Assembly: GCF_033115175.1 (NCBI RefSeq)
Contig: NC_084837.1
Coordinates: 12,166,266-12,230,265 of the forward strand
Source: Lepus europaeus
Lineage: Eukaryota > Chordata > Mammalia > Lagomorpha > Leporidae
DNA length: 64,000 nucleotides
Direction: 5' to 3'
Shown here one piece after another: positions 10,252 to 22,124 of the stretch (positions are counted from its first letter, which is position 1; the number at the start of each line of letters is the position of its first letter). Both the position numbers and the translations under genes were made by a program. The notes beneath the pieces were generated by a model, which saw only the letters and a list, made by a program, of their open reading frames with translations, made no database searches and was not told where the DNA came from.

Positions 10252-10820
10252 TGTTGGGCCCCTCAGTAGTAGAGATGCCCACTTGCTCGAGAGGACGCCC
10301 AAAAACCCAGACTCCAAACCAGCTGATGCAAAAAGCATGAGGTATTTATTGTACGTTTGCGCAAACGGGCCCCTCACCTCAGGCAGTGAGGAGCCTTGAG
10401 CGGCAGTTTTACACAGGTTATATAGACAACGAATTAGCATATTCCTAACGCATGCATAGGATTGGTCAGTTCAGAGGGACCGTTAGCATATGGGAGAATG
10501 CTGGCGAAGAATGCTGGTGGAGAGTGCTGGTATAAAATGCAGAGGTGGCACGGGATTGGTTGGTTCGGAGGGACAATTAGCATACCGGAGAATGCTGAGG
10601 GAGAGTGCTAAGGTGTTACAGGATTGGCCGGTCGCAGTGACATCATAAGTGTGCGCCTAGAGACCCTCCGAAGGGAGGGGCAGCTCTGCTCTGGGGCGCG
10701 CCCAGAGGTTTCCTGGAGGGGAAGGGCAGTTCTGCTCTGGGTAGCATCTAACCTCTTAAGAAGCCCCTGATATTTGCCCAGGCCTAGTTTCCTGTCCCTC
10801 TCCCCCATAAGGGTCCTTCA
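10252..10820 (-). repeat. Provirus A 3' LTR (569 bp)
   Basis: Same length and layout as the 5' LTR: TATATAA at 10418-10424, AATAAA at 10345-10350 (minus strand), CCAAT-containing U3 repeats at about 10455-10640. It bears no relation to the LTR of provirus B. Confidence 0.95.
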
Positions 10821-10839
10821 TTCCCTCCTTTTCTCTTTG
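10821..10839 (-). promoter_or_regulatory. Provirus A polypurine tract
   Basis: The minus strand reads CAAAGAGAAAAGGAGGGAA up to the 3' LTR boundary, a standard plus-strand primer tract. Confidence 0.85.
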
Positions 10840-11131
10840 CACAGATTTTAATCCTAAAATCTATTGGACCTCGGAGATCTTTGAAGCTTGACACTGGTAC
10901 TGTTGAGTCAGCACCCGGGTTTGGAGTTAAACTTGCCAAGCTAGGCGAAAGGGTGGCTGGCAAGAGGGGTGGTCTGGGGAGAGCCTGCCTCACTGGAGGG
11001 AGGGAACTCTGTTCTTGCTGGACTGGGTTGAGTCCCACTGACTGGGGACTGGGAGCCATACACGCCCCAATAGTTAAGACTATTTTTAGGGATTTTTGTC
11101 AAATTATTCTGGTCAGGTACATCCCAGGTAT
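10840..11131 (-). other. Provirus A tail between env stop and polypurine tract
   Basis: About 290 bp in the place of most of env. I see no transmembrane-subunit motif. The last 40 bp before the polypurine tract (ATTTTAGGATTAAAAT-like on the minus strand) resemble the same position in provirus B, so the two families share ancestry near the 3' end although their LTRs differ. Confidence 0.5.
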
Positions 11132-11368
11132 CTAACCCAGTAACCAGTTGACATACGTTCGGGTATAAGGTGGGCCACCATGCCCTGGGGGTATGTAACC
11201 ACTAACAGACCAGGCCACCCGTCCTGTGGGGGAAATTACTTCCCACGTTAACAATTGTGGAGCATGGGGATTGGAAAAACAATGGGGAAAGGCCAGGAAC
11301 ATCACAAATATTAAACAGTTTTTGAAAGTCTTAGCTTGAGCGGGTTCTGAGTGCGCTGGAGCTTCCAT
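11132..11368 (-). pseudogene. env: env: signal peptide and start of surface subunit
   Basis: 78 codons from a real ATG at 11368. A charged start is followed by a hydrophobic signal peptide (about residues 17-32) and the first residues of a gammaretroviral surface protein (NPHAPQLLTWEVISPTG). A stop follows at 11132 and the rest of SU and all of TM are missing. It cannot act in entry; whether a short secreted peptide is made is unknown. Confidence 0.85.
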
Positions 11369-11550
11369 TTGGCTGGTCTATCCGGATCCTCGGGGCCCTG
11401 GGGAGGTGGTGCTCGCTTCACGTGTGAGGCGTGGACCCACGCAGCGATTCCGTCGACCTTGAGAGCGGTGGGAGTTGTCAACAGCACAGTGAAAGGGCCT
11501 TGCCACCGGGGCTCTAGAGTTTTAGATTCGGATGCATGGGCCAATGGCAA
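11311..11550 (-). pseudogene. pol: pol: integrase C-terminal domain
   Basis: About 79 codons with no start codon, matching the C-terminal SH3-like domain and tail of gammaretroviral integrase ([33 protein letters not shown]). The upstream catalytic core is deleted. The reading frame ends at 11311 and overlaps the env start by 58 nt in another frame, the usual gammaretroviral pol-env overlap. Confidence 0.9.
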
Positions 11551-11559
11551 GGATTAAAA

Positions 11560-12858
11560 GCAGGGCAAGAAGCAGTCCAAGAAGAGAGAAGAGGTAGGGA
11601 AAGAGTCCATTAAGGCTCATCCAAAAGAGGCTTTTTTGGAGTACACACTAGATTACCTTGGAAACCAGAAATAAACACCTTGAACATAAGAGTTAGCACA
11701 CAAAATCCGCACATAACTTAGAACTATTTAACAGAGCTAAAAAGAGCTTACATGACCTAACTTTAGAAATGGCAGAGTAACCCACTAAGCAGACACTGTT
11801 AAAGAGAGACACTATAGTTTTTGCAAAAGCAGATCTGTAAAAGAAACAAGTTTAAAGCATATTAAGGACATATAAAAACTTGTAAGACCACCTTAGCTGG
11901 AAAGCAAAAACACGAATACAACATAGGTCCGACATCATCTACAATATTTTAACACACTGCATAATTTAAATAGACTTAAACAGTTGTTACTTTAACAAAT
12001 TTAGAGTCCCATCCTTTGAGAGTTCCAGGGATCCTACTGGAAGTCCCAAAGTTGTTAGACTCCATTTGAGAATTTAAACTGTTAGAGAGTCAACCGCCTA
12101 GCCAAAAACTAGTACGTATAACCTGAATATTTTAACCAAAGCTGTGGGGTAGATCTGATCAGAGTTAGGTAATCACTTAAACATTAAAGGCAGACAAATC
12201 CAATAAAACACGAAACCTTCAAGACACGTGCAAACTCTTAGATAAGTTAACTACAGCAGCACAGAAAAGAGCTGGTCATCAGCATAGAAGCCCGTTGCTT
12301 AGGACAGGGAAACACATCTGAAACAAAACGGCAGGGAATGAGAGGCTTCCGTAGTGCTGGAGAAAAAGTTTCATTAACTGCAAATAAAGACTCATTAGGT
12401 TGGAAAGGGTTAATGGATGAAGGTTTTTGTTCCTTTAGGTAAGGCCAGTGGTAGCCAAAGGCATTTTTTCTTCCTAGTGAGGACAGCATTGAATTGTAAA
12501 TGGAGAGGAAAAAAGCAGCCCAAGGACTAGTCTCCCCTAGAGTATCCGGCTGTGGTCTGCAAGGGTGCAACAGGCTACACTGACTGGAAGAGAGTGCAGA
12601 GAAAGGCCGTGGTCCCCCATTTACAGGGAAGACTGTGCACGTCGGGGCCTAGTAGGACTGGCTGTGAGGTTGGGTAGGCACGCTGTTTACAAGATGGCGG
12701 CGGGTGATTTAAGGGAGGGGAATAACCAAAAAGGGGTGGCCACATGGGCGGAATTGGAGGCGCAGTGCCTTGAGGCAGTGTTGGGCTTTTAGGGGTTGCT
12801 GCCACACCTGAAGGCTCCACCTTAGTTTTAACTGCCTCTGGGGATTTACGAGCCTCCC
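11560..12858 (-). other. 1.3-kb unassigned segment of provirus A
   Basis: It occupies the place of nucleocapsid, protease, reverse transcriptase, RNase H and most of integrase, but I recognise none of their motifs. From 11560 to 12250 it is A/T-rich with stops in all frames; 12560-12830 is GC-richer and holds an AAGATGGCGGC YY1-type motif at 12691-12701 (plus strand). It may be a captured or VL30-like non-coding segment. The minus-strand open stretch 12247-12570 shows no family resemblance. Confidence 0.6.
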
Positions 12859-13446
12859 TCAGGCCAGTGCAGGCCTTCCCTTTCCTCCTGCTCCTTGTGG
12901 ATCCTTTTTGTTGTAAATCCTTTCTGCCTCCTTCATTAAATCTTGTATAGTATATCCCTGAAGCCCCTCTAGCCGCTGCAATTTATTGCGGATGTCCGGC
13001 GCTGACTGTCCTATAAAGGACATGATTACATCTCCCTGCCGGTCCTCTGCCAGGGGGTCAAACGGGGTGTACATACGGTAGGCTTCCATTAATCTTTCTA
13101 GGAAGCCTGCCGGCGTTTCCTCAGCCCCCTGCACTACTGCACGTACCTTGGCCAAATTGGTGGGGCGCTTTCCAGCCCCTCTGAGACCCGCAAGGAGAAC
13201 CTGGCGGTAAAGACGAAGTCGCTCCCTACCAGCAACGGTGGTGTAGTCCCAATCAGGACGGGTTAAGGGAAACGCCTCCTCGATTTCGTTTGGCAGTAGG
13301 GTCGGTCGGCCATCTGCTCCAGGGACGTTTTTCCGTGCCTCGAGGTAGACGCGCTGCTTTTTCTCAGTAGTGAGGAGGGTCTGCAGAAGCTGCTGACAAT
13401 CATCCCAGGTGGGCTGATGAGTCAATAAAATTGACTCGATCAGCCC
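12859..13446 (-). pseudogene. gag: gag capsid fragment
   Basis: About 190 codons of gammaretroviral capsid with no start of its own (an in-frame TAG lies just upstream and the first tracked codon is TTG). It contains the major homology region ([14 protein letters not shown] near 13140-13180) and the region after it ([25 protein letters not shown]). The N-terminal capsid domain is cut short and nucleocapsid is missing. The frame stays open although it can only be translated through readthrough or an upstream fusion. Confidence 0.9.
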
Positions 13447-13480
13447 AGTCAGAGCCTAGGGGTCTTGAGAGAAAGAGGGG

Positions 13481-13816
13481 TTATGGGTTTTCCAATTGTA
13501 AAGATCGGAAGCAGAGAATGGCCAGTACTGCATCTGGCCAGCCACCGAGCGAAGAGGAAAAGCCTGCGAAGTCCAGACGCTTCCCGAGCCCCCTGCCTGC
13601 CCCCGACGGAGGCGCAGGCGGCTGGAGGGCGGGGAAGGCGCTGAGACTTCTTCCCCTGCCCTCGTGGAATCGCGCGCGTTCTCGAACGTCCTTCCAGTGA
13701 TCTAGAGTGAGACTTAAAGGGGTGGTTATTTGTTGACCCTTGCGTGTAAGGATTTCAGCCCAAACAAAAAGAACAGCCAATGCACAGACATATACAGTAA
13801 GCAAGACAAAACACAT
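13481..13816 (-). pseudogene. gag: Broken gag matrix with upstream hydrophobic leader
   Basis: A 111-codon frame starts at an ATG at 13816 and encodes a very hydrophobic segment (residues 2-20, CFVLLTVYVCALAVLFVWA) leading without a stop into a gammaretroviral matrix start ([15 protein letters not shown], from residue 27). The codon at the usual Gag start (13739-13741) is AAG, so ordinary Gag cannot start there and only the leader-bearing form is open. An N-terminal hydrophobic extension recalls glycosylated Gag of murine-type gammaretroviruses. The frame soon turns into a Gly/Pro/Ser-rich p12-like stretch and stops at 13481; capsid resumes in another frame after a deletion. Confidence 0.75.
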
Positions 13817-14152
13817 GGCTAGGACAAATCGAACGCTATTGCGCTATTTTTGGGAGCGGCTGCCTGACCAGCCCTCCCCGGGAAGGAGGGAGACTTAGTC
13901 TCCGACCCACCTCCAGACCACCCCGAGTGCGTCTTCCGGGGGAACAGACCGAGGGTTTCCCCTCATAACCCGGAGCGTCCTCCGGGTAACGGGCCAGGGG
14001 TTGCTGGGCACGCCTGCCTCCCCCACTGGTCCCACAGAGTCAGGTCAGATACTGGCCAGTCAGAATACTCAAGACGAAGACAACAACAGACAGAAAACAC
14101 TTAATTATACCTCCAACTGGTCCGCAGAGAATGGGTCTGAGGGCGACCTCGA
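13817..14152 (-). other. Provirus A leader (5' untranslated region)
   Basis: GC-rich leader between the primer site and the first ATG in the gag frame. It contains a possible splice donor GGAG|GTATAA at 14111/14110, at the same place as the stronger donor of provirus B. The packaging signal would lie here. Confidence 0.6.
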
Positions 14153-14170
14153 GCCCCACGTTGGGCGCCA
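14153..14170 (-). promoter_or_regulatory. Primer binding site, tRNA-Lys1,2 type
   Basis: Two bases inside the 5' LTR the minus strand reads TGGCGCCCAACGTGGGGC, complementary to the 3' end of tRNA-Lys1,2. That primer is better known from beta-like and lentiviral elements, yet the gag, integrase and env remnants here are gammaretrovirus-like. Confidence 0.9.
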
Positions 14171-14172
14171 AA

Positions 14173-14741
14173 TGTTGGGCCCCTCAGTAGTAGAGATGCC
14201 CACTTGCTCGAGAGGACGCCCAAAAACCCAGACTCCAAACCAGCTGATGCAAAAAGCATGAGGTATTTATTGTACGTTTGCGCAAACGGGCCCCTCACCT
14301 CAGGCAGTGAGGAGCCTTGAGCGGCAGTTTTACACAGGTTATATAGACAACGAATTAGCATATTCCTAACGCATGCATAGGATTGGTCAGTTCAGAGGGA
14401 CCGTTAGCATATGGGAGAATGCTGGCGAAGAATGCTGGTGGAGAGTGCTGGTATAAAATGCAGAGGTGGCACGGGATTGGTTGGTTCGGAGGGACAATTA
14501 GCATACCGGAGAATGCTGAGGGAGAGTGCTAAGGTGTTACAGGATTGGCCGGTCGCAGTGACATCATAAGTGTGCGCCTAGAGACCCTCCGAAGGGAGGG
14601 GCAGCTCTGCTCTGGGGCGCGCCCAGAGGTTTCCTGGAGGGGAAGGGCAGTTCTGCTCTGGGTAGCATCTAACCTCTTAAGAAGCCCCTGATATTTGCCC
14701 AGGCCTAGTTTCCTGTCCCTCTCCCCCATAAGGGTCCTTCA
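14173..14741 (-). repeat. Provirus A 5' LTR (569 bp)
   Basis: Ends with TG/CA and matches 10252-10820 throughout by eye. On the minus strand there is a TATATAA box at 14339-14345 and AATAAA at 14266-14271. U3 holds two to three repeats built around a CCAAT motif and an AGCATTCTCC-like motif (about 14376-14560), likely enhancer or promoter elements. Confidence 0.95.
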
Positions 14742-16106: not shown

Positions 16107-16304
16107 GGGGCTGGGTGATAAATGAGTGAGAAAGCTAAGGGAGCAATGGAAAAAGGAGTTACACCCAGAGATCCAGAGCCACCTGCCCCCCAACGCCCAC
16201 TTGCACTGCTTCTGTAACTAACGAAGCTGCTGTCATTGTCATCGCAGGAGCCACCCCCACACTGCCATCATCGGCACCGCAGCCAGCAGCTGAGTGCCTT
16301 CTCC

Positions 16305-16923
16305 TGTAGGACCCCAAAAATTGGTGTCCTATAGAGAGAGACCCCCAGAAGCACGAATTCCAGTCCAACCGATGCAATAAAAGCAAGAGGAAGTTTATTA
16401 CATCTGCGCAGATGGGCCAACTCTAAGCACAACAACACTCTCTGGTGCAGTGTGAGAAGAGAGGCGACAATCATCAACCGCACAGCGTATTTAAGATTGA
16501 AAACCACAATATTAGCATATCTCCACATCATTGCCAAAAATCACAAGATAAACCACAGCATGACAAATTCTCATAAGATGCATGACAAACTTCCAGGGTG
16601 AGGGGACAGAAGACCTTAAGTAGGCATAAACACGGGGTCATCATGACCAAAAACTTAACATAGCTCCTAAAATAATTATCACATGCTCCATTATCTCATA
16701 AAAGCATTAGCACATTCATCACATGTTACAAGGTCAGCTAAAGTCTAGTTATCTTAAACAAAATGCATTTTGCAAGCCAAAGCATTTTGCACAGAAGCAA
16801 AATATGCAGTTAGCTCAAGCAACTTCATTTTAACCCTTTCTATCTTAATTTTACATTCCAATTTAACCCCATCCTATCTTAATTTCACATTCCAATTTAA
16901 CCCCATCCTATCTTAATTTCACA
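16305..16923 (-). repeat. Provirus B 3' LTR (619 bp)
   Basis: Second copy of the LTR, same length and apparently the same sequence as 21304-21922. The AATAAA signal lies at 16394-16399 (minus strand), which would end both genomic and spliced transcripts. The ~34-bp tandem units are at 16836-16921. The 4-bp target repeat CTCC lies just outside at 16301-16304. Confidence 0.95.
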
Positions 16924-16940
16924 TTCCCCCCTTTTCTTTT
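16924..16940 (-). promoter_or_regulatory. Provirus B polypurine tract
   Basis: On the minus strand the 17 bases AAAAGAAAAGGGGGGAA abut the 3' LTR start, the expected plus-strand primer of reverse transcription. The 80 bp between it and the JDP2-like stop are AT-rich and carry no env transmembrane coding. Confidence 0.85.
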
Positions 16941-17018
16941 GGACAAATTTTAATCTTAAAATTTAAGTGAAATTATGGGGATAAGTTATACCATTTGCAC
17001 CGCAGCCAGCCATTAATA

Positions 17019-17537
17019 TTAGATCCAAGGGGCAGGGACACTGTCGGTGCGAACAATGCAGGTGGGGCGGCGCCGGTTCAGTACGAGAATCAGCTGCTGC
17101 CGCTCCTGCTCCAGCTCCCTGACCTGTATCTTTAGTACCGCGTTTCTGAACTCCAGCCGCTCAAACTCCCGCTGCAGGGTCTCCGTGCGCTCCTTCCTCC
17201 GGGCCCACACCGCCTTGTTCTGTTCCAAGCGCCTTTTCCTCCGCTCCTCCTGTTCGTCGAGCTTACTTTTTACAGGTTGGGGCCTCTTGTCCAGGTTTAC
17301 CTCGTCTTTCTCATGCTCCGCCTTCTTTACCACTTCTTTCTTTCTTAAGTCCTTGGTGGTGACCTCGGTGCTGATGTCCACGGCTGCGTCAGGCATGCCC
17401 AGCTTTATCTCCAGCAAGGGCACGATTATGGTCCCAATGCATTTCAGCTCCTTTACGATCAGAGCCGAGCCAGGCCGTCCGGTCAGGGGGTCTTGCCCTG
17501 GCAGAGAGCTCGTGGTCACAAAAGGGTCTGAAATCAT
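17019..17537 (-). CDS. JDP2-like: Captured JDP2-like bZIP protein with a prothymosin-alpha-like insert
   Basis: Open frame of 172 codons from the ATG at 17537; it continues in frame upstream, and the codon matching the host start is GTG at 17555. N-terminal (SDPFVTTSSLPG, DPLTGRPGSAL) and C-terminal (KRPQPVKSKLDEQEERRKRR, RPTCIVRTDSV) parts match Jun dimerization protein 2, a nuclear AP-1 repressor that pairs with Jun and C/EBP-family proteins. Between them a ~36-residue insert starts MPDAAVDISTEVTTKDL, like the thymosin alpha-1 part of prothymosin-alpha. Numbering from the GTG codon, the zipper is intact (L127, L134, L141, L148, L155), but the basic region is damaged: after N113 four residues are missing and the two conserved alanines are V116 and W117. 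The host C-terminal tail is replaced after TDSV by PAPWI and a stop. Dimerisation without normal DNA binding, that is a dominant-negative, is inferred. Confidence 0.9.
   Translation of the reverse strand: MISDPFVTTSSLPGQDPLTGRPGSALIVKELKCIGTIIVPLLEIKLGMPDAAVDISTEVTTKDLRKKEVVKKAEHEKDEVNLDKRPQPVKSKLDEQEERRKRRLEQNKAVWARRKERTETLQREFERLEFRNAVLKIQVRELEQERQQLILVLNRRRPTCIVRTDSVPAPWI
17289..17396 (-). other. Prothymosin-alpha (thymosin alpha-1)-like segment inside the JDP2-like frame
   Basis: 36 in-frame codons starting MPDAAVDISTEVTTKDL and continuing with a charged KKEVVKKAEHEKDE-type stretch. Order and spacing match the acidic N-terminus of prothymosin-alpha, including a Met where that protein starts. 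Several acidic residues are replaced by lysine. It interrupts JDP2 similarity exactly between KLG and KRPQPVK. A third host mRNA as donor is the simplest explanation. Confidence 0.75.
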
Positions 17538-17597
17538 AGCAGGCCGGCCAGGCACAGGATCTGAAACGAGTGTGGGAGCACAAAACTTTTTCTTTAT

Positions 17598-17615
17598 CCT
17601 GCAACAAAGGAGGGG
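17598..17615 (-). promoter_or_regulatory. 3' splice site ahead of the JDP2-like frame
   Basis: The minus strand reads CTCCTTTGTTGCAG followed by GATAAAG, with the exon starting at 17598. The JDP2-like coding frame follows without an intervening stop. It could be joined to the leader donor at 21246, giving a second subgenomic mRNA. Confidence 0.6.
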
Positions 17616-18144
17616 AGCCGGGTAGGAATACTAAACAGTCTTAAAGAGTCCCATCCCGAGCGGATTCCAAGAGCCACTCCCCTCAAGATAAGACTCTTAA
17701 AAGACCGTCCAGTTGTAGCTTTGGTGTTGTCCAAGTTTAAGCTGATAGGCGGCAGCCGGCCGCCTCCCCATGCGCCCACCAAATCCGCTGCCAGACACAG
17801 GTTTACAGGCACATCTCTGTGCCCTGCAGCAGATTCTATGAGCACAAAAGCAAGTCTACAGGGTAGGGGAAGTATGTTCCGCGGGATAGAAAAATTACAC
17901 AAAGGCATCAGAATTTAAAAACAGAAAATACAACAGAGACAAAAACAGAAAGCACATCATACAAATTTGGATCAATACCCGGTGCCTGTTCAGCTGAATC
18001 GACCCAAATACTTTTACACACCCTCTTCGACTTACTGTAAACATTTTACCATTTTCATTCTAGTCTAAACTAGCCATCCGGATTTAGAAACCATGTCCTT
18101 TCCTTTAGCCCTTTTTACCAACGATACTCTTTTCTTTTATGTCC
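17602..18144 (-). other. Spacer between the two captured bZIP frames
   Basis: About 540 bp without a recognised domain. The minus-strand open stretch at 17594-17908 has no family resemblance I can see. The half nearer the C/EBP-epsilon-like frame is AT-rich. It may hold captured untranslated sequence or residual viral DNA. Its end supplies the pyrimidine tract for the next 3' splice site. Confidence 0.4.
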
Positions 18145-18816
18145 TTAACTTTTAATTTCTGTACTGACCAATGACAACAAATTTATAATAGCTTTCAAAC
18201 ACCTGCGCAGGATATCCAGCTCCTGCGTGAGCTGCCTCACGCGGCTGCGCAGCTGCTCATTTTCTGCCATGTACTGTTGCATCTCCAGGATGCGCCGCTT
18301 GGTCTTGTCCCTGCTCTTGCGCACGGCGATATTGTTGCGCTCCCGCCGCAGCCGGTATTCCAGGCTGTCCTTTACTTCCTCCTTGTCCTCCTGCGAGGGG
18401 TCAGCCGGGGAGGGCGCCTTGAGGGGGCTGTTGGGGGGCACGATGGTGGCCACGGGGGCCTCGGGGACGCCCAGGGGCTGGCCTGGTGCCGTCAGGGTTG
18501 GGGGCAGGTGCACAGGGGGCACAGTGGTGGCCAAGGGGGCCTCGGGGACACACAGGGGCTGGCCTGGTGCCGTCAAGGTCGGAGGCAGGTGCACAGCCAT
18601 CTGCCCGCAGTGTGCCACCTGGTACTGCAGGGGATTATAGCTGCCCCGGCTGCCACCTCGGCTGCCCTCTGGCCCCCGGAGTTTCTCCCGGAGCTTCTCC
18701 TTCACAGCCCCAGTCCCAGGGTCGTTGTTAGGTGCCGACTCCATGCCAGAGAGGTCGGAGAGCAAAGCTGGGGACTGCTCCTCTTGGAAGCCTTCGAAGC
18801 CCCGGGAGGCGAACAT
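18145..18816 (-). CDS. CEBPE-like: Captured C/EBP-epsilon-like bZIP protein
   Basis: Uninterrupted 223-codon frame inside provirus B. Residues 47-74 ([23 protein letters not shown]) and 150-205 ([20 protein letters not shown], then a leucine zipper) resemble mammalian C/EBP-epsilon, a granulocyte transcription factor. The basic region keeps N161, A164, V165, S168 and R169, the DNA-contact positions. Zipper positions are Y182, L189, L196 and L203. Compared with the host family as I know it, most of the N-terminal activation region is missing (a short LLSDL-like piece remains at 18-22), a 27-residue Pro-rich unit is duplicated (75-101 and 102-128), four residues are absent just after the basic region, and the C-terminus after residue 205 is unrelated. 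It has no introns, as expected of capture from mRNA. A nuclear DNA-binding or dimerising modulator is inferred; a repressor or dominant-negative role is plausible because the activation domain is reduced. Confidence 0.9.
18433..18594 (-). repeat. 81-bp tandem duplication inside the C/EBP-epsilon-like frame
   Basis: Two adjacent 81-bp copies encode 27 residues each (75-101, 102-128), both containing [12 protein letters not shown] and PEAP. They differ at a handful of positions, so the duplication is older than this insertion. It keeps the reading frame and lengthens the Pro-rich linker before the bZIP domain. Confidence 0.85.
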
Positions 18817-18826
18817 TTAAGCAAAG

Positions 18827-18856
18827 CCTGGCGGGGTAGGGAAGTTGCAAAAGAAT
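18827..18856 (-). promoter_or_regulatory. 3' splice site ahead of the C/EBP-epsilon-like frame
   Basis: On the minus strand a pyrimidine-rich run ends CTACCCCGCCAG, with the exon starting at 18827, only 11 nt before the ATG at 18816. Joined to the leader donor at 21246 it would put this ATG first in a subgenomic mRNA, as env is placed in simple retroviruses. Confidence 0.65.
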
Positions 18857-19139
18857 TACAACCGATCTACCGCGAGTGTGGGTTTCCATACGCAGTTTAT
18901 ATACAGAAGCCTGAACGCAGCGCAAGTCAGCACTGCCCAATTTGTTATAGTGCTGTGCCTTTCGCTGCATCCACGCCCCCGCATCCAGCCCAGACTAGAT
19001 CAATTGGGAAAACAAATATAGTCTAACACCCATGGTATTATAATCCCCCAAATAAAAACCGTCGGCGACACCTCGACCCAGTCCCCAGTGCCAGATCTCC
19101 GTTATGGTCAAAACCTCCCCTAACTGAATAAAGCTTTCT
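18831..19139 (-). other. Unassigned segment between pol remnant and C/EBP-epsilon-like frame
   Basis: About 310 bp with no recognised retroviral or host coding motif. Its downstream end is the pyrimidine-rich tract of the 3' splice site at 18828. It may be residual pol-env intergenic sequence or untranslated sequence captured with the host gene; I cannot tell which. Confidence 0.4.
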
Positions 19140-19610
19140 TTAGCTAGACCCCCTGCACCCTGGCCACCTCTGGCTTGCCCGGGAGACAAAGCTGGGTCCA
19201 TTATCTGACCCCAGTACCTTTGGTTGTCCAAATCGGGGAAACATTGGCGCTTCGTCGGAAAAGCCTTTGTCTGTTCTGAGTTCCCCATGGGTAGTGGCGA
19301 AAGCGTACCTGCTGTTCTTGTGCATTTTCACCCACTCCTATTTCTTGGCTGCACGGAGTGCTTGGTTCATAGCGATCAGCTCTGCCTGCCGAGCAAGGTT
19401 CTCGGAAGGGGGGTTGGAGATAGAAACCCATACCACTGACCTCGTTCGACCGCCTCTCACTGTTGTCCCCGTTGTACTCCGGAAGCTAGGGGGATGTCGG
19501 CTCACGTGGGCCCGTCCCGGACACCGCAGGAGGTGATAGAGTATTATCCACAGGAACCTGGGCAGGGCCTGCATTCCCAACAATATCCCCAGCCGTGTGA
19601 CGGACCACAC
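19140..19610 (-). pseudogene. pol: Pol remnant: RNase H joined to integrase core
   Basis: Minus-strand frames show two pol landmarks out of their normal spacing. An RNase H stretch (ARQAELIA near 19380, then NSRYAFATTHG near 19300 in a shifted frame) is followed within about 20 residues by an integrase-core motif (GSDNGPSF near 19200, containing a catalytic-core aspartate). The end of RNase H, the zinc-binding part of integrase and everything after the core are gone. At least one frameshift separates the two RNase H parts (19338 and 19331 belong to different frames). The remnant is non-functional and shows that the ancestor was an ordinary gammaretrovirus-like pol carrier. Confidence 0.75.
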
Positions 19611-20086
19611 ATATCCCAGCGAGGGAGGAGCTGCTGTCGCCCAGCCTCACCACTCCGCTGCTGCCGTCTTTCCTCTCGCTGGCTTGCAGAGGCCGTTTTT
19701 GGTCAGTTCAGTCCCGTGTGGCAGACGTGCACCACTGGATTTCCGTTGTTAGTCGGATCTTAAGCAAACCTGTCCTTCTGGGCACTTCTCTGTGCTTTTG
19801 TCGGTCTCCCGGGGTCCCTGCCTATTCTGATTTTCCCTTACTCTGCTTCCCTTGAACTGTGGTGGCCAGAATCCTAATTAGTTTCTGTTTCTTAGCCCAT
19901 CTTAAACTTCCCCTTTTGTTTTTAACTAAATAACTTTAACCCCTTCAGCTAATCTCTTCAGGAGAGTCTGGCAGTAGAGTCTGAGTCTCCTACAAAGTTT
20001 CATTTAAGTATAATGTTAGTAAAACAGGCCCTGCAAGTCCTGTCAGGGCTTGTGATCCTAGTTATATGGAGGAGGAGGACGGCCAG
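19611..20086 (-). other. Provirus B segment without recognisable coding
   Basis: Lies between the gag stop and the RNase H remnant, where capsid, protease and reverse transcriptase would sit. I see no reverse transcriptase or protease motif in any minus-strand frame. It probably contains the deletion junction(s) that removed most of gag-pol. Confidence 0.5.
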
Positions 20087-20710
20087 TTAGAACGGGCCGG
20101 GGGTCCTTCCTCCTCTATCTTTTCTTACGCAGTCTTCAAAAGGCAAAAGATCTTCCTGCTCGCCTGGGAGAGCTAAGGGTTTTTCAGGTTTGAGGGTGTC
20201 CAATTCCTGCAATGGGTAGAGGGTTGAAGTAGGGTTTTTGCCCTGGTCTGCAAGTTCCGATACTAGGGGTGTTGCGGGTAAAATCGGAGGGGGTTTGGGG
20301 CTCGACGCCACCCCCAGAGCAACTGCTGACAATTCAGAACTGGGCTTCATTCTCAGGGCGGCGGTGGGTATAGCAGGATCGAGCTCTGCCACCGCCCTGT
20401 TAGAAAGGAGGAAAGGTTTTACCCAGTCTGGGGGGTTTTTCGCCAGGTCCTCCCACACAAAGATGTAGGGCACTTGTTTCGGGCGCCCTTCTTTACCTCC
20501 CTTGCAGACCTGGCTCTTCACCTGTAAGATAATTTGAGAGTCAAAAGTCCCATCCCGTGGCCACCCGATGTTTAAGGCTGGCCACTCGGACGTACAAAAA
20601 CTTGTCCAGTTCTTCTTCTGCACTCTTATAGACAAGTTTTGGGCCCGTTCCCGGACCTCTCTCCAATGACCTAGAGTAAGACTCAAAGGTGTAGTTAATT
20701 CCTGTCCCAT
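20087..20710 (-). pseudogene. gag: Truncated gag (matrix and start of p12-like region)
   Basis: Open frame of 207 codons starting at the ATG at 20710, where the protein begins MGQELTTPLSLTL: glycine-2 for myristoylation, then a gammaretroviral matrix start. A proline-rich stretch follows (about residues 120-200), then a stop at 20087. Capsid and nucleocapsid are missing. The MA domain would have directed Gag to the plasma membrane; without capsid the product cannot assemble. An in-frame stop lies shortly before the ATG, so no glyco-Gag leader is in this frame, although a hydrophobic peptide is encoded in another frame at 20680-20780. In transducing retroviruses the start of gag and the nearby packaging region are commonly retained, which fits what remains here. 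Confidence 0.85.
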
Positions 20711-21240
20711 GTTGGAGGGGAAAGGCAATTAAGGTTAGTATATTAAAACACAGAAAACAACCACAAGACTCACAAATCACAAGACTTCACAAAGACACTG
20801 CGCACAACACTGGAACGAGACCTGCGCGCCCTAATGAGACGAGACCTGCGCGCAACAAAACTGAAACCAAAACGGGAGTGGCTGCTGCCACCAGCTCTTC
20901 TCCCGGGAAAGAAACCCTACTGAATCCTAACCAGAGCTTCCGATGAGAGCGAAGCGGCTGCCACCCGCCACGCTCCCCAGGTAAGCTTAGTGATGGGAGC
21001 GAAGCGGCTGCCACCCGCCAGGCCCCCCCCAGAATACCGCCAATGGAGCGTCCTCCAAGGGCCTGAGCCAGGGGTCTTGACACGTCTGTCCTTCCTACTA
21101 CTGGCTCTTTTCAGATACAGGTCCTGCAGGCACAACCTCAGTAAAACATGAACCTCCGGTACGTCAAGCGCCCCGGGAAAAAAATAAAAAATCAACAAAA
21201 TCAACAGAACACAAAAGAAAAACACTTAAAACAGCAAAAA

Positions 21241-21249
21241 CTTACCTCC
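21241..21249 (-). promoter_or_regulatory. Leader 5' splice donor
   Basis: The minus strand reads GGAG|GTAAGT with the exon ending at 21246, a consensus 5' splice site about 40 nt beyond the primer site. It is the natural donor for subgenomic mRNAs of the downstream host-derived frames. Provirus A has a weaker homologous site (GGAG|GTATAA at about 14110). Confidence 0.75.
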
Positions 21250-21284
21250 GATTGGAAAATGGAGCGTGGGTCTGGGGTCTCCAA

Positions 21285-21302
21285 ATCCCGGACGAGCCCC
21301 CA
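21285..21302 (-). promoter_or_regulatory. Primer binding site, tRNA-Pro type
   Basis: One base inside the 5' LTR the minus strand reads TGGGGGCTCGTCCGGGAT, complementary to the 3' end of tRNA-Pro, the usual primer of murine-type gammaretroviruses. It fixes the orientation of the element and identifies 21304-21922 as the 5' LTR. Confidence 0.95.
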
Positions 21303-21303
21303 A

Positions 21304-21922
21304 TGTAGGACCCCAAAAATTGGTGTCCTATAGAGAGAGACCCCCAGAAGCACGAATTCCAGTCCAACCGATGCAATAAAAGCAAGAGGAAGTTTATTAC
21401 ATCTGCGCAGATGGGCCAACTCTAAGCACAACAACACTCTCTGGTGCAGTGTGAGAAGAGAGGCGACAATCATCAACCGCACAGCGTATTTAAGATTGAA
21501 AACCACAATATTAGCATATCTCCACATCATTGCCAAAAATCACAAGATAAACCACAGCATGACAAATTCTCATAAGATGCATGACAAACTTCCAGGGTGA
21601 GGGGACAGAAGACCTTAAGTAGGCATAAACACGGGGTCATCATGACCAAAAACTTAACATAGCTCCTAAAATAATTATCACATGCTCCATTATCTCATAA
21701 AAGCATTAGCACATTCATCACATGTTACAAGGTCAGCTAAAGTCTAGTTATCTTAAACAAAATGCATTTTGCAAGCCAAAGCATTTTGCACAGAAGCAAA
21801 ATATGCAGTTAGCTCAAGCAACTTCATTTTAACCCTTTCTATCTTAATTTTACATTCCAATTTAACCCCATCCTATCTTAATTTCACATTCCAATTTAAC
21901 CCCATCCTATCTTAATTTCACA
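21304..21922 (-). repeat. Provirus B 5' LTR (619 bp)
   Basis: Begins TG and ends CA in viral sense, and matches 16305-16923 along its full length by eye. On the minus strand it carries a TATA-like TTAAATA near 21487-21494 and an AATAAA polyadenylation signal at 21393-21398, in the usual U3-R order. The outer U3 end holds about three tandem copies of a ~34-bp unit (21835-21920), a possible enhancer repeat. Confidence 0.95.
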
Positions 21923-22124
21923 CTCCCTATCTCCCACCTTCGTGCCTCCATCTGGGGCTTCCCCTGGGCAGCACCTAATCAGAACCAGCTGTGAGGAGCC
22001 GGGGAAATGCAGTGTGTAGGCTTGTCACCCCTTGGTGCCAAGGAGAGCTGGAGGGAACAGAGCTGAGAGCCAACGGCACACCTCCGAAACGGAGCCACCA
22101 GGTTAATTGCACCACCCCTGCTTT

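Follow-up and report, generated by a model that had tools for sequence, protein, structure and literature searches.

What becomes of a retrovirus in which host transcription-factor genes stand where viral genes should be, and what might such genes do for it? The question is raised by a provirus in a 64,000-nucleotide stretch of the genome of the hare Lepus europaeus (hereafter the window; NC_084837.1, positions 12,166,266 to 12,230,265), where an endogenous retrovirus (ERV) on the minus strand, running from 21922 to 16305, carries sequence from three host genes: the bZIP genes CEBPE and JDP2 and the prothymosin-alpha gene PTMA. The capture is real, as is a multicopy family of proviruses that carry it, and of both we are as good as certain. 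On balance we lean towards reading the family as a non-autonomous transducing gammaretrovirus whose products would act as zipper decoys.

The first-pass annotation of this DNA had described intact long terminal repeats (LTRs), a primer site, a polypurine tract and 4-bp target repeats, and all of these were borne out. Pairwise comparison of 16305-16923 with 21304-21922 found the two 619-bp LTRs to agree at 619/619 positions, CTCC stands on either side of the element, and the primer-binding site TGGGGGCTCGTCCGGGAT, presumably of the tRNA-Pro type, and the polypurine tract AAAAGAAAAGGGGGGAA lie inside the LTRs. Together with the gag matrix (MA) frame, the LTR ends, target repeat, primer site and polypurine tract identify a gammaretroviral (class I) ERV, an assignment also backed by integrase (IN) and Env pieces of the murine leukaemia virus type in a relative that shares its LTRs. 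The polypurine tract region (16925-16966) is 97.6% identical to a longer LTR-sharing relative. MA and pol scraps are the only viral genes left in the window's copy, and between the MA frame and the CEBPE-derived frame lie pol scraps only, broken by stops. The features, in positions of the window, are as follows.

21923..21926, no strand: 4-bp target duplication CTCC on the upstream side of the element, read from the sequence
21304..21922, minus strand: 5' LTR, 619 bp, with TG...CA ends, matching 16305-16923 at 619/619
21285..21302, minus strand: primer-binding site TGGGGGCTCGTCCGGGAT, read from the sequence after the 5' LTR
21241..21247, minus strand: splice-donor-like AGGTAAG in the leader, a consensus match only
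20087..20710, minus strand: gag matrix frame, which starts with MGQ and then closes; PF01140 at E 9.6e-46, PDB 1mn8 'Core protein p15' at E 2.8e-38
19341..19646, minus strand: pol remnant, RNase H-like piece, labelled from reading the translation only, with no Pfam match and no PDB match
19143..19337, minus strand: pol remnant, integrase piece, with rve at E 0.0014, under Pfam's cutoff
18828..18830, minus strand: CAG resembling a splice acceptor, a short way ahead of the CEBPE start codon, a consensus match against a background of 3.4 such sites per kb on the minus strand of the window
18145..18816, minus strand: CEBPE-derived frame, 223 aa, with bZIP_2; alignment to the hare CEBPE gene is in pieces within 18204-18725
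18434..18595, minus strand: 81-bp in-frame tandem duplication in the CEBPE-derived frame, from a repeat scan
17019..17537, minus strand: JDP2-derived frame with PTMA insert, ATG to stop, by similarity to JDP2
17292..17393, minus strand: prothymosin-alpha (thymosin alpha-1) segment in the JDP2 frame, by PDB and Pfam similarity
16924..16940, minus strand: polypurine tract AAAAGAAAAGGGGGGAA, read from the sequence before the 3' LTR
16305..16923, minus strand: 3' LTR, 619 bp, with TG...CA ends, matching 21304-21922
16301..16304, no strand: 4-bp target duplication CTCC on the downstream side of the element, read from the sequence

The product of 18145-18816 was recognised as bZIP_2 by Pfam (E 2.7e-9), with C/EBP-beta as its best PDB match (E 2.3e-13) and 57-59% identity to the best-ranked mammalian CEBPE proteins. 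The cellular CEBPE gene of the hare is found at a different place in this genome (L047) and comprises two exons separated by a 444-base intron. The window aligns with both exons at ~84% DNA identity and lacks the intron, and the CEBPE sequence was thus taken up from spliced mRNA. Most of the host N-terminal part is gone and the host C-terminus has been replaced, while the two units of the 81-bp duplication differ by 5 synonymous and 3 non-synonymous changes. AlphaFold predicted a single helix (152-222) in an otherwise disordered protein, with a predicted template modelling score of 0.29, and is uninformative on DNA binding.

Among named proteins, 17019-17537 is nearest to one from Lepus europaeus, a 'jun dimerization protein 2-like' (99%). 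Thymosin alpha-1 in the PDB matches the translation of this frame at residues 80-105 (E 4.6e-4), and PF03247 (prothymosin) is recognised at E 1.2e-11 in the sister copy P0134. In an alignment of relatives the PTMA piece is only a remnant in P0129 and absent from P0130-P0133, a pattern suggesting that it has been lost repeatedly. The JDP2 frame runs uninterrupted where the rabbit isoform P0225 suggests exon edges, from which we infer that JDP2, too, was captured from spliced mRNA. Alignment places each frame with its host gene and trees put each clade beside it, in agreement with the first-pass description of two open frames of host origin, C/EBP-epsilon-like and JDP2-like. That description stands for both captures and is amended by a third host gene, the 81-bp duplication, the pol remnant and a multicopy family. 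In the protein search, every named relative of either frame that ranked above the host genes was from Lepus europaeus; no rabbit protein of this kind appeared in that search, in which broken copies would not show. IMG/VR yielded no relatives of the JDP2-like protein P0003, the sole query tried there.

Other copies with the same LTR, which the first-pass annotation had proposed to seek, do exist in the hare genome and form a multicopy family. A six-frame genome search with the CEBPE-derived protein, in which the best 150 of 213 candidates were scored, returned at least 120 matching stretches. Eight of those listed, one of them the window's, match over the full length at 100% identity, and among the listed stretches spanning query residues 1 to 203 or beyond, 37/38 are without a stop and the remaining one has three; stop-free full-span matches persist at divergence down to 79%. 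The JDP2-derived protein found 52 stretches. At 38 other loci fetched on the basis of these CEBPE and JDP2 matches, both frames were matched at 32, JDP2 was unmatched at five, and one had only a 47% JDP2 fragment. With the window included, both frames are long enough for codon alignments at 27 of the 33 paired loci, some loci being partial, and 16/33 lie on contigs longer than 10 Mb. Some copies on small unplaced contigs may be haplotype duplicates, possibly C163/C10 and C621/C392. The CEBPE frame also recurs every 4,364 bases on C103 (at 99650, 104014, 108378, 112742 and 117106; L075 is C103:99300-100500), and C634 bears several copies of it.

The copies are young and show signs of mobility. 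Two of them, C1 and C5, are DNA-identical to the window across CEBPE (0/669 differences), spacer (0/610) and JDP2 (0/519). Target repeats were readable at six of nine sampled loci, namely CTGC (C20), GATT (C19), CTGC with other flanks (C1), CTAT (C17) and, less regularly, GTGC plus one extra base (C5) and a five-base GTAGT (C12); none was readable at C10, C621 or C392. Ten LTR pairs, with aligned lengths of 536 to 686 bases in the nine other copies, show 3 mismatches in 6,203 aligned sites. At a substitution rate of 2.5e-9 per site and year, from which the hare rate may differ, this divergence corresponds to about 0.1 million years.

Whether the captured frames have been under constraint was assessed with codon sets, whose rows were kept only where a long open frame and a recognisable start were present. 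The CEBPE set took in 34 of the 39 sequences available (the window and 38 other loci). The JDP2 set took in 30; the nine excluded were the six loci at which JDP2 was unmatched or matched only in part, and three more. For CEBPE the ratio of non-synonymous to synonymous rates (omega) was 0.486, with omega of 1 rejected at twice the log-likelihood difference (2dlnL) of 39.97 (34 rows, 28 distinct, 216 codons); JDP2 gave 0.534 and 14.72, respectively (30 rows, 27 distinct, 173 codons). Pooled pN/pS for CEBPE was 0.54 versus 1.02 and 0.97 in the wrong frames, and 0.50 versus 1.06 and 0.81 after CpG masking, while JDP2 gave 0.56 versus 0.74 and 1.21. Because of these wrong-frame controls, frame-specific purifying constraint is supported for CEBPE, and evidence of purifying selection on JDP2 is weak. 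The first-pass suggestion that both frames were selected before this insertion thus fits the CEBPE frame and is only weakly reflected in JDP2. Under neutrality 13-15 stops would be expected on the CEBPE tree (5-6 on inner branches) and 6-7 on the JDP2 tree; the codon sets contain none, their rows having been chosen as open frames.

The same rows reveal what the captured proteins have kept and lost. KVLE, between basic region and zipper, is missing in all 32 readable CEBPE rows (of 34), and the KSRD block is missing as well in 13 of them. In JDP2 the aligned CRNK block is missing in 28/28 readable rows (of 30), three of which have lost further basic residues. The same four aligned positions are therefore deleted in both proteins, in all readable JDP2 rows and part of the CEBPE rows, and from C/EBP and AP-1 structures we take these positions to contact DNA. 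By the features that define the host families, the captured JDP2 has neither a recognised domain nor CRNK: P0003 and 7/7 other JDP2-like members fall below the Pfam bZIP cutoff that 2/2 host JDP2 proteins reach. The window's CEBPE product and 9/9 other CEBPE-like members tested are recognised as bZIP_2, but the C/EBP linker is absent from the readable CEBPE rows. The zippers themselves are kept, with CEBPE a/d positions unchanged at 7/7 against changes at 8/16 other positions (10 rows) and the JDP2 d leucines unchanged at 5/5. Because DNA-contact or linker residues are lost in both proteins, it is unlikely that either would work as an ordinary activator.

With so few viral genes, the family would need help to move. 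An LTR-pair search, in which the best 40 of 1,415 candidates were scored, found pairs 97-99% identical to the window's lying ~7.5 kb apart, start to start, and one pair at 6.8 kb. Pieces of four of these ~7.5-kb LTR-sharing proviruses were fetched and pieces of three scanned for frames, which disclosed open protease and reverse transcriptase in 2/2, IN with the start of Env in one, and Env in another; the fourth piece (L082), compared with the window only, had no match to it. These longer relatives are plausible sources of proteins in trans.

A second set of elements, which we call group B, has LTR pairs 95-98% identical to the window's and 6.1-6.4 kb apart, and bears a different CEBPE-derived frame in which linker and contact block are retained (L067, L071). 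Because group B and the window have sequence in common outside the CEBPE part, on both sides of it, a single CEBPE capture before the two lineages split appears likely. No JDP2 match stood among the matches listed at the group B loci L067, L068 and L070-L073. JDP2 and PTMA sequence was probably acquired later than, or separately from, CEBPE. Frames similar to group B occur at L068, L070, L072 and L073, in several copies. The genome also holds an apparent mosaic at L080 (C27:22999600-23000600), which joins a group B CEBPE frame to a proline-rich stretch of the window's group, and a third, very diverged CEBPE-like frame, ~45-50% to the window's and present in several copies, at L069 (C23:24.1 Mb), with matches on C23, C24 and C27. 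JDP2-like tails of only 31 residues occur in 72-aa open frames at L076 (C57), with matches on C83 and C279, and an older-looking JDP2-like frame (44.5% to the window's over 200 residues) lies at L074 (C91:175900-176800), with a second match on C102. None of 46 MA matches was to a named Lepus gag protein, full-length Gag lying outside the length limits of that search.

Elsewhere in the window, a second young ERV occupies 10252-14741 on the minus strand, with 569-bp LTRs that are 100% identical, a GGGG target duplication, a primer site that we take to be of the lysine type and an inner region of only ~3.35 kb that encodes Gag MA (E 1.2e-7) and Gag p30 (E 7.9e-97). Tandem repeats of 34 bp lie at the U3 start of the LTRs of the CEBPE-JDP2 provirus (16827-16927 and 21826-21926). 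Rfam and ARAGORN scans of the window returned no match.

From these elements a mechanism can be proposed. A recently inserted hare gammaretroviral provirus, in which CEBPE, JDP2 and PTMA sequence has displaced most of gag, pol and env, would be transcribed from its LTR, and full-length relatives that share its LTR would package and copy the RNA in trans. Splicing could join the donor at 21247 to the acceptor-like site at 18828, 11 bases ahead of the CEBPE start codon, or to acceptor-like sites at 17599 or 17561 ahead of the JDP2 start, all of them consensus matches. The resulting zipper proteins would dimerise with C/EBP and AP-1/ATF factors of the host and hold them away from DNA, a dominant-negative principle described for such factors (PMC9954556). 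As the proteins keep their zippers but have lost either residues that contact DNA or the phasing of zipper and basic region, a role as dominant-negative dimerisation decoys seems the most likely one, and such decoys might benefit the virus by changing how infected cells, probably myeloid ones, differentiate or respond to stress. The fullest form of this proposal, a recent and perhaps still active germline invader that deploys two host bZIPs and a prothymosin piece as paired zipper decoys against C/EBP and AP-1 networks, is tentative, and we would put its chances below even.

Several observations weigh against the decoy reading. The KSRD block, presumed to contact DNA, is kept in the window's CEBPE copy and in 19/32 readable rows, and group B keeps both linker and contact block. 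The contrast between zipper core and other positions is not significant on its own for CEBPE (p 0.052), nor is the a/d contrast for JDP2 (p 0.14). CpG-masked pN/pS for JDP2 is 0.69 versus 0.65 and 1.53 in the wrong frames, and we rejected robust purifying selection on JDP2, the signal of which does not survive this masking. Distances in the spacer between the frames are about equal to CEBPE non-synonymous divergence (dN) in 8 of 12 loci compared, and larger in four; in most loci, then, dN is no lower than this standard. Between the hare CEBPE gene and seven captured copies, dN (0.23-0.26) is near synonymous divergence (0.18-0.31), which suggests an early relaxed or adaptive phase. AP-1, cAMP response element and C/EBP sites are not in excess in the LTR relative to 200 shuffles, and LTR autoregulation by the captured bZIPs was rejected for this reason.

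Some of the same observations would suit a classic transforming capture, in which the proteins retain DNA binding and alter growth by activation or repression, as v-fos, v-jun and v-maf do. Apart from the linker, the window's CEBPE copy has an intact basic region, all nine other CEBPE-like members tested are recognised as bZIP_2, and group B retains basic region and linker. Removing four residues between basic region and zipper should nevertheless break their phase, and the JDP2 side fits poorly, with the contact block lost in every readable row (28/28) and no Pfam bZIP cutoff reached by P0003 or its seven relatives, whereas both host JDP2 proteins reach it; we consider this account doubtful. 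Less likely still is that the frames are passenger cDNAs, captured by chance and carried along without benefit to the virus as the insertions are young. In its favour, the near-identity of LTR pairs leaves no time for any one insertion to have decayed, spacer divergence is similar to CEBPE dN in those 8/12 loci and the JDP2 signal is weak, but the CEBPE constraint is frame-specific, and 37 of the 38 listed full-span CEBPE matches are stop-free despite their divergence.

Domestication, with LTR-driven bZIPs serving as the hare's own regulators or antiviral factors, could claim that such proteins are annotated in Lepus europaeus; it is made very improbable by the numerous recent mobile copies, nearly identical to one another, where a single conserved locus would be expected. 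We give practically no credence to independent CEBPE and JDP2 retrocopies inserted into an older ERV. Both frames are intronless as far as tested, yet the host C-terminal ends, and hence the host 3' ends, are missing from both, the flanks of the CEBPE part are common to group B elements on both sides, and the pair recurs at 32/38 other loci. A retrocopy origin was rejected on these grounds, and decoy products of a transducing, non-autonomous family remain the reading that we prefer.

Retroviral capture of host genes is known mostly from rare laboratory or tumour isolates. The hare family amounts to a whole radiation of such captures within the germline of a mammal, where open copies are many and intermediates and mosaics occur as well. 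Comparison among the copies can therefore follow each step by which a cellular gene became a viral one: the activation region and the DNA contacts were lost, PTMA was inserted and a stretch was duplicated. A further question is why young proteins under LTR control, which may disturb the action of C/EBP and AP-1, are tolerated in hares. Among the open-licence papers listed for this element, for hare ERVs and for captured bZIPs, judged by titles and the starts of abstracts, none described it.

Known systems resemble the family in part. The bZIP oncogenes v-fos, v-jun and v-maf belong to acutely transforming retroviruses, where host bZIP cDNA stands in for viral genes, as it does here, and the provirus depends on a helper, as the hare element would; the hare family differs in being endogenous and gammaretroviral, with many germline copies, and in combining two bZIP genes and a PTMA piece with the loss of DNA-contact or linker residues. 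The two-oncogene viruses MH2, AEV and E26 likewise hold two host genes per provirus, but these are exogenous avian isolates with other genes and no germline family. Non-autonomous LTR elements of the VL30/ETn type are mobilised in trans, as we propose for the hare family, and likewise have germline copies, but are not known to carry frames for host proteins such as these. Dominant-negative bZIPs have also been engineered, among them those of the A-C/EBP type; these are designed constructs, whereas the hare proteins bear natural deletions. The common principle, described in PMC9954556, would be that the zipper is kept and the dimers cannot bind DNA. Among ERVs, PMC4299795 describes captured host mRNA in the crocodilian groups CrocERV29 (KIT-ligand) and CrocERV31 (nectin3), and for the KIT-ligand frames it reports purifying selection, indels that keep the frame and several copies still open. 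Those groups match the hare family in being ERV groups with captured host mRNA but differ in having one captured gene each and no transcription factors, the frames around the captured gene in CrocERV29 being broken.

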